A stretch of 64,000 nt of DNA, from assembly GCF_015775515.1 (NCBI RefSeq), contig NZ_CP065383.1, forward strand, positions 1,178,001 through 1,242,000. Reading direction: 5' to 3'. Of the stretch, positions 52,344 to 64,000 are shown one piece after another (the stretch's first letter is position 1; each line of letters opens with the position of its first letter). A program made the translations under genes and the position numbers. The notes beneath the pieces were generated by a model that was not told where the DNA came from, did not search any database, and saw nothing but the letters and a program-made list of their open reading frames with translations. This stretch comes from Atribacter laminatus. Lineage in GTDB: Bacteria; Atribacterota; Atribacteria; Atribacterales; Atribacteraceae.

Positions 52344-53513
52344 ATGGAAACATCAAAAGTTAAATTTTTAGAACGGACTCTAATGGGACCAGGGCCTAGT
52401 AACATTGATCCTCGAGTGAACGCAGCAATGACGAGGCCAATTATGGGACACCTTGATCCAGAATTTCTAAAGTTAATGGATGAAAATATGATCCTTTTAA
52501 GAAAAGTATTTAAAACAGAAAACCCGCTTACCTTCCCAATTTCAGCAACAGGGAGTGGTGGTATGGAAGCAGCCTTAGCTAATATTATTGAACCCGGTGA
52601 CCGAGTAGTAATTTTAGTGAATGGTGTTTTTGGTGAGCGGATGGCTGATATTGCCAAGAGATATGGTGCAGAAGTAAAGGTTTTAGAAATTGAATGGGGG
52701 AAAGTTTTCAGTCCTGATGAAGTAAAAAACTTCATTTCCAAACATGCGCCAATAAAAATGGTAGGAATTGTCCATGCGGAAACTTCTACTGGAGCCTTGC
52801 AACCATTAGAAGAAATCAGTTATATCGTTCATAATTATAACTCTCTCTTTTTAGTTGACACAGTAACTTCCTTAGGAGGGACTGAAGTCAATCTCGATCA
52901 ATGGGGAATCGATATAACTTATAGTGGTACTCAAAAGTGTTTGAGTTGTCCACCAGGATTAGCACCTGTCTCCTTTAATGAAAAAGCAGTTGAAGCGGTA
53001 AATAATAGAAAAAATCCTATTATTAGCTGGTATTTTGATGTAAGTATGTTGAGAAAATACTGGGAAACCGGAGAACGTTTCTATCACCATACAGCACCAA
53101 TTACGATGAACTATGCTTTGTGGGAAGCTTTGAAAATTGTTGAGGAAGAAGGATTAGAAGCCCGATTCGAGAGACACTCAAAGCTTAGCAATCTCCTTCA
53201 AAACGCTCTGGAAGCCCTTGGTTTGAAGTTGCTTGTTGAGAAAAATTATCGTGCTCCAATGCTTACTTCAGTTTTAATCCCAGAAGATATTTCTGATTTG
53301 GATATTCGTGGGAAATTGTTAACACAATACTCAATTGAAATAGGTGGGGGTCTTAGGAATCTTAAAGGTAAAATATGGCGAATTGGTTTAATGGGATACA
53401 CTTGTCAAAAGAAGAACATTGCTTTATTAATAAGTGCTCTTGGTCAGTGTCTTAATGATTCTGGTTTTAAAGCTGATATTAACGCGGCATTATCAGTATT
53501 AAATGGAGAGTAG
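52344..53513 (+). CDS. Class V aminotransferase (alanine/serine-glyoxylate type)
   Basis: This 389-residue PLP enzyme belongs to the fold-type I alanine-glyoxylate/serine-glyoxylate aminotransferase group. The N-terminal LMGPGPSNIDPRV motif, SATGSGGMEAALAN, the VDTVTSLGGTEVNLDQWGID region with the PLP-contacting Asp, and the Schiff-base lysine in SGTQKCLSCPPGLAP are visible. It could transaminate glyoxylate to glycine, placing it directly before the glycine cleavage genes. A second member of the same family lies at 58550. A GGAGG site lies 9 bases upstream. Confidence 0.88.
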   Translation: METSKVKFLERTLMGPGPSNIDPRVNAAMTRPIMGHLDPEFLKLMDENMILLRKVFKTENPLTFPISATGSGGMEAALANIIEPGDRVVILVNGVFGERMADIAKRYGAEVKVLEIEWGKVFSPDEVKNFISKHAPIKMVGIVHAETSTGALQPLEEISYIVHNYNSLFLVDTVTSLGGTEVNLDQWGIDITYSGTQKCLSCPPGLAPVSFNEKAVEAVNNRKNPIISWYFDVSMLRKYWETGERFYHHTAPITMNYALWEALKIVEEEGLEARFERHSKLSNLLQNALEALGLKLLVEKNYRAPMLTSVLIPEDISDLDIRGKLLTQYSIEIGGGLRNLKGKIWRIGLMGYTCQKKNIALLISALGQCLNDSGFKADINAALSVLNGE

Positions 53514-58133: not shown

Positions 58134-58232
58134 TATTATTAATTATTCAGTATCAAAAAAATCATATAGTCATTTTAAAAAGAATTTATAAATGGCAATT
58201 CCTTAGAATAATTTAAGGAAGTAAATTTTCTA

Positions 58233-58260
58233 TTGACTTTTCAACTGCGTGTGCTATATT
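58233..58260 (+). promoter_or_regulatory. Promoter of the serine T-box operon
   Basis: TTGACT (58233-58238), a 16-bp spacer and TATATT (58255-58260) lie immediately before the T-box leader. TATTAT at 58257-58262 with an 18-bp spacer is an alternative. A small inverted repeat TTCCTTA/TAAGGAA (58199-58205 and 58214-58220) lies just upstream and may be the end of the previous transcript or an operator. Confidence 0.7.
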
Positions 58261-58265
58261 ATCGG

Positions 58266-58497
58266 CAAAAGTAAATAGAGAAAATGGCAATGAAGGGGAG
58301 CAGTAAAGGGAAGGAGAAACATCAGAAAACCGGTGGTTGATGCAAACCGGTGTTTTTGTTCCTTGAATCCACCCTGGAGCCGTGGGAAGAATAGAAATTC
58401 TCACCGCAAAATGCGTTAAGGTATTGAGGGTGGTATTCCACTGAAAAGGGTGGCACCGCGAGTAGGCTCTCGCCCCTATGGGTGAGGGCTTTTTTTG
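58266..58497 (+). promoter_or_regulatory. Serine-specific T-box leader
   Basis: The T-box antiterminator sequence AAGGGTGGCACCGCG (58446-58460) is a near-consensus match. It is followed by an overlapping terminator hairpin and a T-run (58464-58497). Stem I contains AGTA on the 5' side, the CCGGTGGTTGATGCAAACCGG distal stem (about 58330-58350), and GAA-TCC-A at 58365-58371, the usual specifier position. TCC is a serine codon. Uncharged tRNA-Ser would stabilise antitermination and turn on the downstream SerC-like and serA genes. Confidence 0.9.
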
Positions 58498-58549
58498 TTT
58501 TTATTTATTGTCATATTACCTAATTCGAGCTGAATAAGGAGGTAAGATT

Positions 58550-59704
58550 ATGAAATCGTCTTTTTTAATGACTCCAGGACCAACCCAAGTTCCATCACAA
58601 GTCTCTTTGGCAATGGCACAGGAGATCATTCACCACCGAGTTCCAGCTTTTGGAGCTCTTTTGAAGGATATTACCGAAAAACTGCAGTACGTATTCCAAA
58701 CCCAGAATGACGTTTTAGTCTTCCCCGGAGCAGGAACCGGAGCCATGGAAGGAGCTATAGTAAATTTCTTTTCTCCTGGCGATAAAGTTGCTTTTGGGAT
58801 TATTGGAGAATTTGGAAGTCGATGGGCAAAAATTGCTGAAATATTTGGATTGCAACCCATTCGCTTAGGAGGTGAGTGGGGGAAAGCAGTGACGGCTCAG
58901 GACATCGATCTCCTCCTTAGTAGTGAAGCCGGGAAGGGTGTAAAAGGTGTTTTTATTACCCACAACGAAACATCCACCGGAGTATACTCAGATCTAAAGT
59001 CAATTGGTGAAGTTTGTAAAAAACATAACGTTCTGTATTTAGTAGATGCGGTGAGTTCATTAGTGGCGATTGATTGTAAAACTGATTTATGGGGAATTGA
59101 CGTCGTTATTACCGCATCACAAAAGGCTTTGATGACACCTCCTGGCTTATGTTTCTTTAGTGTTAGTAAAAAAGGATGGGAATACAATCAGGAAGCAAAG
59201 TGTCCAAGATACTACTGGGATTTAGCCAATGCATTAAAATCGCTTAAAAAGGCGAGCCCAGAAAATCCTTATACCCCGGCAGTAACTTTGCTATTTGGTT
59301 TGAATGAAGCTTTGAACATGATTAAGCAAGAAGGCTTGGAAAACGTTTTTAAGCGTCATCTGCAATTATCCAAAATGTTTCGTACCGGCGTAGAAGCGCT
59401 TGGTTTAGAGTTAATGGTTAAAGATGAGAAAATTGCTTCGCCAGCAGTCACTTCGATAATGCTACCCGAGGGAATAGAAGCAGGAAAAATTTCCGGATTT
59501 TTCCGTAACAATGGAATAGTCATTGCTGGTGGCCAAGGCCAGTTGAAAGGGAAAATCATTCGGGTTGGCCATTTAGGATACGTCGATGCCTTTGATATTT
59601 CAAATACCCTGATCACTTTGGGGCGAGCATTTAAGTCCCAAGGGAAAGCATTAAATACCGAAGCAGCTCTTAAAAAAGCGTGGGAGGTTTATGAGCATGA
59701 GTGA
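58550..59704 (+). CDS. Class V aminotransferase, probable phosphoserine/serine-type (SerC-like)
   Basis: This 384-residue PLP enzyme is of the same family as the one at 52344: MTPGPTQVPSQV, VFPGAGTGAMEGAI, a VDAVSSLVAIDCKTDLWGIDVV region and the PLP lysine in TASQKALMTPPG. In Thermotoga-type genomes such an enzyme is paired with serA in place of a classical SerC, converting phosphohydroxypyruvate to phosphoserine. The T-box for serine and the overlap with serA support that role here. An alternative is serine-pyruvate/glyoxylate transamination. It starts with ATG after GGAGG. Confidence 0.85.
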   Translation: MKSSFLMTPGPTQVPSQVSLAMAQEIIHHRVPAFGALLKDITEKLQYVFQTQNDVLVFPGAGTGAMEGAIVNFFSPGDKVAFGIIGEFGSRWAKIAEIFGLQPIRLGGEWGKAVTAQDIDLLLSSEAGKGVKGVFITHNETSTGVYSDLKSIGEVCKKHNVLYLVDAVSSLVAIDCKTDLWGIDVVITASQKALMTPPGLCFFSVSKKGWEYNQEAKCPRYYWDLANALKSLKKASPENPYTPAVTLLFGLNEALNMIKQEGLENVFKRHLQLSKMFRTGVEALGLELMVKDEKIASPAVTSIMLPEGIEAGKISGFFRNNGIVIAGGQGQLKGKIIRVGHLGYVDAFDISNTLITLGRAFKSQGKALNTEAALKKAWEVYEHE

Positions 59705-60647
59705 AGAAATTCGAGTTTTGTGTGCTGCTGGAGTACCGGAGGATATGGCAAAAAGGCTAAGTGAGGCGATCGGGCCAGTTACAATTCTAAAATCAGATGA
59801 TGAAAATGAGATCATTCAAGAAATTCAAGATAAACAGGTTTTTGTGGTTCGTTCAAAGCCAAAAGTAACCGCAAATATTATTCATAACGCACCAGCCTTA
59901 AAAGTTGTTGCTCGACCTGGGGTTGGTACCGACAATATCGACAAGGAAGCCTGTAAAAATAAAGGAGTGAAAGTAATCAACACTCCTGAAGCTTCTGCTG
60001 CCAGTGTTTCCGAACTGACGATAGGTTTAGCAATTAGCTTGTTGAGGTATGCTTTTACCACCTGTAGTCTTTTGAAATCCGGAGACTGGGCAAAAAGTAA
60101 ATATACCGGTCGGACTGTGGAAGGAAAGGTCTGGGGAATTATTGGATTTGGAGGCATAGGTCGGAGAGTTGCTGCTATAGTGAAAGCTATGAATGCCCAG
60201 GTTGTTGCTTATGATCCCTATATTCCTGAAGAACAATTTGCAAATTCTGAAGTAAAGCGGGCGGTTCGCCTTGAAGATTTACTATCGGTGAGTGATATTG
60301 TTTCGCTCCACGTTATCATGAGCGATGAAACTAAGGGAATGATATCAGCAGAAGCCATTCAAATAATGAAGAAAGGATCCTATTTGATTAACACTTCTCG
60401 AGGGAAAGTAATTGATCACAAGGCTCTGATGCAGGCATTGGCAAATGGTCATCTGGCCGGAGCAGCCTTGGACGTTTTTGAAACCGAGCCTCCAAGCGAT
60501 AAAGAACTAATATGTCTGGATAATTTAATCTGTACCCCTCATATAGGAGGATCGACTGAAGAAGCTTTTATCAATGCGACTGATATCATGATTCGGAAAC
60601 TTCGGCAAATGTTTAAACCAGAAGAAGGGGGTCCAATTGGTATTTAA
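59697..60647 (+). CDS. serA: D-3-phosphoglycerate dehydrogenase, short form
   Basis: This 316-residue NAD-dependent enzyme oxidises 3-phosphoglycerate, the first step of serine synthesis. The substrate/NAD fold shows VVARPGVGTDNIDKEACK, then the Rossmann motif GIIGFGGIGRRVA, NTSRGKVIDHKAL and the catalytic His in CTPHIGGST. It lacks the C-terminal ACT domain, so allosteric inhibition by serine through ACT is absent. Of the two ATG codons, the one at 59697 is nine bases after GGAGG and is preferred over 59691. It overlaps the aminotransferase gene by 8 bp. The operon is controlled by the serine T-box. Confidence 0.92.
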   Translation: MSEEIRVLCAAGVPEDMAKRLSEAIGPVTILKSDDENEIIQEIQDKQVFVVRSKPKVTANIIHNAPALKVVARPGVGTDNIDKEACKNKGVKVINTPEASAASVSELTIGLAISLLRYAFTTCSLLKSGDWAKSKYTGRTVEGKVWGIIGFGGIGRRVAAIVKAMNAQVVAYDPYIPEEQFANSEVKRAVRLEDLLSVSDIVSLHVIMSDETKGMISAEAIQIMKKGSYLINTSRGKVIDHKALMQALANGHLAGAALDVFETEPPSDKELICLDNLICTPHIGGSTEEAFINATDIMIRKLRQMFKPEEGGPIGI

Positions 60648-60699: not shown

Positions 60700-61150
60700 T
60701 CCTTAACGGTGCTTTTTCGTGTGAGAATCTCATCCGACGCCGGCGGCGTCACCCTGAGGCTTCGTTTTTCGAAGCCGTGAGGATCTCATCTGACACCGAT
60801 GGTGTCATCCTGAGCCCTCGCTTTGTGAGGGCGTGAGGATCTCAAATACTTTAAAGGATGAGATTGCCACGTCGTCTAACCAAAAAACGGTAAGACTCCT
60901 CGCAATGACGGAGCGGGTTGATGAGATTGCCACGTCGCTAAGCTCCTCGCAATGACGGAGCGGGTTGATGAGATTGCCACGTCGCTAAGCTCCTCGCAAT
61001 GACGGATTTAGATAACTATTATCATCCTTAACTGGTACTGCAAAGTGACATGAGGGTCTATATTGAAAATCCACGGGCTTGATGAATCTAGCCTCGATAA
61101 TCAAATTTTTAATGTAGCGACATGCCATGGCATGTCGAATCAGGATTTTC
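60700..61150. repeat. Composite intergenic repeat block (D copies, C copies, H, B)
   Basis: Three D-type segments lie at about 60715-60845 and three C copies at about 60858-60910, 60918-60960 and 60968-61008. H is at about 61020-61060, and the B palindrome is at 61119-61136 with a degenerate version of the flanking stretch found at 7755-7830. From 61150 to 61365 nothing is recognised apart from AT-rich DNA before the archease gene. Confidence 0.75.
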
Positions 61151-63441: not shown

Positions 63442-64000
63442 ATGTTAGATTGGAAATGGATACGAGATAATCGTGAAATAATACTAACTGCCCTAAAAAA
63501 TCGAAACGCCGAGTTTGATTTGGATGAACTTTTTTATTTAGATAACCAACGTCGATCATTACAACAGGAAGCTGATCTTTTAAAACAGAAAAGAAATGAG
63601 GAATCCAAGAAAATCGGTTTTCTGAAAAAAGAAGGGAAAGATACCGATGATTTAATGAAAAATGTTCAAAATATTGCTGAACAAATCAAAATTATTGATG
63701 ACAAACTGAAAGCGGCTGAAGAAGAATGGAGAGAAAAACAGTTATGGATACCGAATATACCTCATGAAACAGTTCCAATCGGGCAGGATGAAAGTAGTAA
63801 CCAAGTAGTTAAAAACTGGGGTAATCCCCGAGAATTCGATTTTGAGCCACGTCCTCATTGGGATATTGGAGAAGGATTGGACATCCTTGATTTCGAAAGA
63901 GGATCTAAGATTGCCGCTTCACGTTTTACGGTTCTCAAGGGCTTAGGAGCCCGTTTAGAAAGAGCAATTATGAATTTTATGCTTGACCTCCATACCCAGC
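63442..64000 (+). CDS. serS: Seryl-tRNA synthetase, 5' part (cut by the window end)
   Basis: The first about 186 codons of serS are present. The N-terminal coiled-coil arm that grips the tRNA-Ser long arm is visible (about residues 30-100: RRSLQQEADLLKQKRNEESK), followed by the start of the catalytic core (WDIGEGLDILDFERGSKIAASRFTVLKG). GGAG lies before the ATG at 63442. No T-box is seen in front of this gene, unlike the serine biosynthesis operon. The gene continues beyond 64000. Confidence 0.93.
   Translation, partial: MLDWKWIRDNREIILTALKNRNAEFDLDELFYLDNQRRSLQQEADLLKQKRNEESKKIGFLKKEGKDTDDLMKNVQNIAEQIKIIDDKLKAAEEEWREKQLWIPNIPHETVPIGQDESSNQVVKNWGNPREFDFEPRPHWDIGEGLDILDFERGSKIAASRFTVLKGLGARLERAIMNFMLDLHTQ

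Follow-up and report, generated by a model that had tools for sequence, protein, structure and literature searches.

A serine T-box leader upstream of an aminotransferase-serA gene pair in Atribacter laminatus

The window, by which we mean the whole 64,000-nucleotide stretch of Atribacter laminatus DNA that was analysed, carries on its forward strand a T-box leader (58281-58480) followed by two overlapping genes. The leader comprises Stem I, a Stem II region, Stem III and an antiterminator, and in an Rfam scan of the whole window it matched RF00230 with 120.9 bits (cut-off 93, E 3.1e-26) over the complete model, positions 1-219. This was the sole match at gathering level in the window, and chance is no issue for it. 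The triplet UCC, a serine codon, lies directly 3' of GAA in the specifier loop of Stem I (58368-58370, +), the T-box 14-mer AGGGUGGCACCGCG occupies 58447-58460 (+) with UGGC at 58451-58454, and an intrinsic terminator spans 58464-58498 (+), its 12 pairs at 58464-58491 being followed by a U run. The original prediction of a complete leader, with T-box sequence, terminator and a TCC after GAA, is therefore borne out, and the Rfam match falls within 58200-58510, where it had been expected. Further upstream, a promoter-like site (58233-58262, +) has TTGACT, a 16- or 18-nt spacer and TATATT or TATTAT, and agrees with the consensus at 10 of 12 positions; we do not take it as evidence of function because such matches are common by chance, three being seen in that stretch against 1.5 expected.

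The terminator has a predicted fold of -19.9 kcal/mol, and none of 200 shuffled sequences was as stable. Because the terminator's 5' half includes the antiterminator's 3' half, only one of the two structures can form at a time. When 15 leader rows from 14 genomes were aligned, the antiterminator helices were paired in 100% of cells and the terminator in 98.9%, with alignment columns 210-216 common to both. The Rfam structure paired in 92.8% of cells of this alignment against 41-53% in slid controls, a comparison in which the structure is favoured over its slid versions, because the model that supplied it had been fitted to the sequence of the window itself. Both sides had changed in 21 of the 47 leader pairs, and on four of five covariation measures the observed value was reached by none of 500 shuffles (30 of 500 on the fifth). 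Stem I folded alone with RNAfold was no better than shuffled sequence (z -0.68), which counts against the serine T-box reading, and compared with the Rfam consensus the specifier loop lacks one base. Taken together, the leader has a score above the gathering threshold, a specifier for which the host encodes a tRNA, a UGGN sequence that pairs with the end of that tRNA, and exclusive antiterminator and terminator structures.

The first gene downstream (58550-59704, +) encodes a class V aminotransferase of 384 amino acids that matches PF00266 with 86.5 bits. Its Lys192 aligns with the SQK lysine of 6pk1 and 2dr1, which, together with the PF00266 match, places it in the AGT/SPT type. We take Lys192 to be the PLP lysine, Asp166 the ring aspartate and Arg338 the carboxylate arginine, as in the AGT family. 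The second gene (59691-60647, +) overlaps the first by 14 nt and encodes a serA-like 3-phosphoglycerate dehydrogenase of 318 amino acids without an ACT domain. This product has 2-Hacid_dh domains, its top PDB match is the phosphoglycerate dehydrogenase 1wwk, and its best model is PGDH, at 296.8 bits against an equivalog cut-off of 454. A short form would be expected to fall below that cut-off, but the product might also be some other hydroxyacid dehydrogenase, a point that we count against the main reading. What had been called a SerC-like/serA pair needs correction in that the first gene is of AGT/SPT type. Canonical SerC was considered as its identity and rejected: the best SerC model, TIGR01366 (serC_3), gave 49.9 bits against a cut-off of 401.65, and PRK05355 gave 24.1 bits against 253. 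The nearest named relatives of the aminotransferase are in Candidatus Atribacteria metagenome-assembled genomes (MAGs; 74-98% identity), in keeping with the earlier impression of a non-Firmicute genome; the host belongs to Atribacterota. One such MAG carries the same locus on two contigs (L068 and L071), 95% and 98% identical to the window gene, and probably combines two strains.

Several other features surround the pair. A second AGT-type aminotransferase gene (52344-53513), whose product is about 36% identical to the first, has no T-box, and the ORFs beside it resemble, on reading their translations, those for an ABC transporter, FAD-dependent oxidoreductases and a regulator. After serA, at 60721-60989, lie intergenic repeats with the core GAGATTGCCACGTCG. 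The genome has 173 copies of this core, 90 of them forward and 83 reverse, where the control gave 0, and 19 copies stand in the window when up to two mismatches are allowed. The serS gene (63442-64000, +; TIGR00414) runs past the window end, and neither the Rfam scan of the window nor the T-box search of the genome found a T-box near its start, as had been noted from the sequence. A tRNA-Ser(UGA) gene follows one ORF further downstream of serS. No SerB scored over its cut-off in the genome, so that the phosphatase step has no assigned gene, which we count against the main reading.

No canonical SerC was found in the genome either, the second AGT-type paralogue scoring no more than 23.4 bits against TIGR01364. 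We surveyed the aminotransferase and SerC across 25 genomes of the order, and the two were found to alternate. The PLP lysine is kept in eight genomes (G000, G002, G005, G008, G011, G019, G021 and G024, the last with its leader not assembled), and none of these has canonical SerC. It is lost in another eight (G007, G010, G013, G015, G016, G018, G020 and G023). SerC is present in all ten genomes in which the aminotransferase is lysine-less (these eight), reduced to a remnant (G006) or not found (G012), the SerC of G016 being a contig-end fragment of 202 bits. Over these 18 genomes Fisher's exact test, with no correction for kinship, yields 2.3e-5. A SerA tree of 17 rows, built without G037 and without G002 (whose contig ends before serA), shows three changes of state, at least two of which are forced by well-supported branches. 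Among the other genomes, G017 has SerC and its aminotransferase stretch is not assembled, and neither gene was found in G001, G003, G004, G009, G014 and G022, which are 75-92% complete. In G019, G021 and G024 the lysine and aspartate are kept and the arginine is lost; these aminotransferases may be partly eroded, although SerC was not found there. SerC identities between G006/G007 and G010/G013/G015 (0.70-0.74) are about those of SerA (0.67-0.70), which would fit an old origin of both enzymes followed by loss of either. No T-box was seen at nine SerC loci or at the G016 fragment, in flanks of up to 1.5 kb that were shorter at contig ends. Because the lysine-bearing gene alternates with canonical SerC, we suggest that the window aminotransferase is probably the phosphoserine aminotransferase of this genome.

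Our reading of the locus, to which we assign a probability of roughly 0.93, is that the leader is a transcriptional T-box responding to tRNA-Ser(GGA) and that the pair most likely performs the first two steps of phosphorylated serine synthesis. When serine is short, the anticodon of uncharged tRNA-Ser would pair with UCC and its GCCA end with UGGC, stabilising the antiterminator and allowing transcription of the aminotransferase-serA pair; when tRNA-Ser is charged, the 12-pair terminator would form and transcription would stop. SerA would then oxidise 3-phosphoglycerate and the AGT-type enzyme would transaminate the product. The computation shows the structure with its covariation, the specifier and its matching tRNA, the gene families and the conserved operon, whereas the response to tRNA charging, the direction of the switch and the two enzyme activities are what we infer here. 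With the structure model, specifier, discriminator pairing, downstream genes and conservation in agreement, the proposal of a serine T-box on a serine-biosynthesis pair holds.

An improbable alternative is that the pair serves serine or glyoxylate catabolism, as a serine-glyoxylate or serine-pyruvate aminotransferase with a hydroxypyruvate reductase, and that the T-box tunes this pathway. The best solved relatives of the aminotransferase are a serine-glyoxylate aminotransferase, which is the top PDB match, and a hypothetical serine aminotransferase; its top NCBIfam match is BhcA, below cut-off; and immediately before the pair come ORFs that we interpret as glycine cleavage genes. The available text of PMC6391272 describes a similar pair of class V aminotransferase and phosphoglycerate dehydrogenase under Rex in Caldicellulosiruptor, and cites a Rex-regulated serine-pyruvate aminotransferase of a serine utilisation pathway in Thermotogales, which we also count in favour of catabolism. 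However, a T-box turns genes on when an amino acid is scarce, which is the wrong sense for serine catabolism; moreover, the SerA product matches PGDH best, and the alternation with canonical SerC points to phosphoserine aminotransferase.

Since the specifier loop is one base under consensus, both UCC (serine) and CCA (proline) can formally be read from it. UCC is invariant in all 15 leader rows, and the next base is A in two and G in 13. The genome encodes tRNA-Ser(GGA), whose G73-CCA end pairs fully with UGGC 58451-58454, and UGGC is found in 13 of the 14 genomes. The exception is UGGU in G007, as also in the G006 leader; this would be a wobble if tRNA-Ser there has G73, and we count it against the serine reading. 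This 7-nt loop recurs in the genome's three Trp leaders, with GAA, then UGG, then a purine, so the GAA-specifier-purine frame is a local rule. In the portion of PMC7778990 available, TBDB gives UCC as the most used serine specifier (0.65 of Ser specifiers). UCC, fitting tRNA-Ser(GGA), is therefore favoured, and the TCC specifier proposed from the sequence stands. A proline T-box, with CCA read one base later in an 8-nt Rfam loop after GAA-N, would accord with the one-base deletion between GAA and UCC in the Rfam alignment and with the tRNA-Pro(UGG) gene of this genome, but we regard it as very improbable and rule it out on discriminator, codon conservation and context, because the third base of CCA varies while UCC never does, the A73 of that tRNA would want UGGU where UGGC is kept, the Trp leaders share the short loop, and no proline genes lie downstream.

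We found the T-box together with an aminotransferase-like ORF in 14 genomes, and serA came next in 13 of them; in the fourteenth, G002, the contig ends before serA. G006 has a T-box just under the cut-off (87.9 bits; UCC, UGGU) before an aminotransferase remnant and an intact serA (L165:1597-3071). G012 and G014 have serA without the aminotransferase and without a T-box in the stretch examined, and the contigs of G009, G017, G020 and G024 stop short of the expected leader. In other families of the phylum (f5-f7) a T-box was present at one of 17 loci (L021-L037), namely L023 of G037, where the match of 59.0 bits falls short of the gathering score and the leader carries UCC and UGGC. No serine T-box was found beside the homologues from other phyla (L017-L020, L073-L076 and L072).

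The unexpected part of the finding is that the lysine-less homologues are also under a serine T-box. Such a leader lies upstream of each of the eight except that of G020, in which this stretch is not assembled. Their loci are L131-L137 and L169 (G010, G013, G015, G016, G018, G023, G007 and G020, respectively), the frames are open over 305-384 amino acids in seven genomes and 197 in G023, and serA is next. Between G010 and G016, G016 and G018, and G013 and G020, dN/dS was 0.17-0.30 for the lysine-less proteins against 0.02-0.05 for SerA in the same pairs. For the aminotransferase it was 0.02-0.03 between the lysine-bearing G000 and G005 and 0.12-0.14 between the arginine-less G019 and G021, the remaining pairs being saturated in one or both methods. 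Constraint on the lysine-less homologues thus appears relaxed but present, which fits either a new role or slow decay. One speculative proposal is that in SerC-using lineages the T-box aminotransferase is now catalytically dead, yet still made with SerA on serine starvation for a new job, which might for example be that of a regulatory partner of the ACT-less SerA; we think this rather unlikely. The competing explanation is slow decay, in which the frame would be kept open only through its overlap with serA, by translational coupling. The lysine-less homologues under the same switch offer a case in which the retention of a pseudo-enzyme by a regulated operon could be tested, and we consider that the aminotransferase result merits more attention than the T-box itself.

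T-boxes are common in this genome and phylum. The genome has seven matches at E 1e-3 or better, six of them over the gathering score. Taking as first gene the first ORF of at least 80 amino acids within 1.5 kb, and the specifiers by reading, they precede trpE (UGG), ilvD (CUC), a gene for a TrpX-type ABC binding protein (UGG), trpB (UGG), a gene for a homocysteine biosynthesis (HcyBio) protein (AUG), argC (a probable arginine T-box at L007:1501-1709, below the gathering score, with AGA or CGA) and the window pair (UCC). All seven first genes are for biosynthesis or transport and none is for a tRNA synthetase. The Trp T-box of the TrpX-type transporter gene has an FMN riboswitch (L004:32-173) 1.3 kb upstream. 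A T-box match (E 1e-3) was present in 50 of 50 Atribacterota genomes, and over the gathering score in 44. That a T-box on such a pair is 'less usual' was therefore overstated, given these counts and the serine T-box published for a serA gene (PMC8002221, in the text available).

We conclude that the leader is an unexceptional serine T-box with good support, from a phylum that has been little described. Earlier papers (2008 and 2013), in the parts available, place T-boxes mainly in Firmicutes, then in Actinobacteria, Chloroflexi, Deinococcus-Thermus and a few Proteobacteria. Our literature searches found no report of a T-box in Atribacter or Atribacteria, nor of an Atribacterota riboswitch; TBDB or Rfam entries are possible. 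The locus extends tRNA-sensing control to Atribacterota, and in this genome T-boxes control the synthesis and uptake of amino acids, not tRNA synthetases. In addition, the regulator serves as functional evidence for gene assignment: the family score alone would suggest glyoxylate metabolism, and it is the serine specifier with the SerC alternation that leads us to assign a probable phosphoserine aminotransferase.

Canonical SerC (TIGR01364), found in sister genomes without a lysine-bearing AGT-type gene, carries out the reaction that we propose for the window enzyme, but the window protein belongs to another class V subgroup and scores far below the SerC cut-offs. With the transcriptional leaders of RF00230, as the accessible text of PMC7778990 describes them, the window leader shares the Stem I specifier loop, the 14-mer with UGGN and the antiterminator/terminator arrangement, and it differs from the family in its Atribacterota host and in a specifier loop one base under the Rfam consensus. 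The serine T-box of Paenibacillus polymyxa serA, for which switching was demonstrated by mutation, likewise combines T-box and terminator, a serine specifier and control of serA (PMC8002221, in the portion available). In P. polymyxa, a Firmicute, the specifier is AGC and serA stands apart from serC, whereas the window leader has UCC, a specifier that the same source cites for predicted serine T-boxes in Clostridium acetobutylicum and C. tetani.
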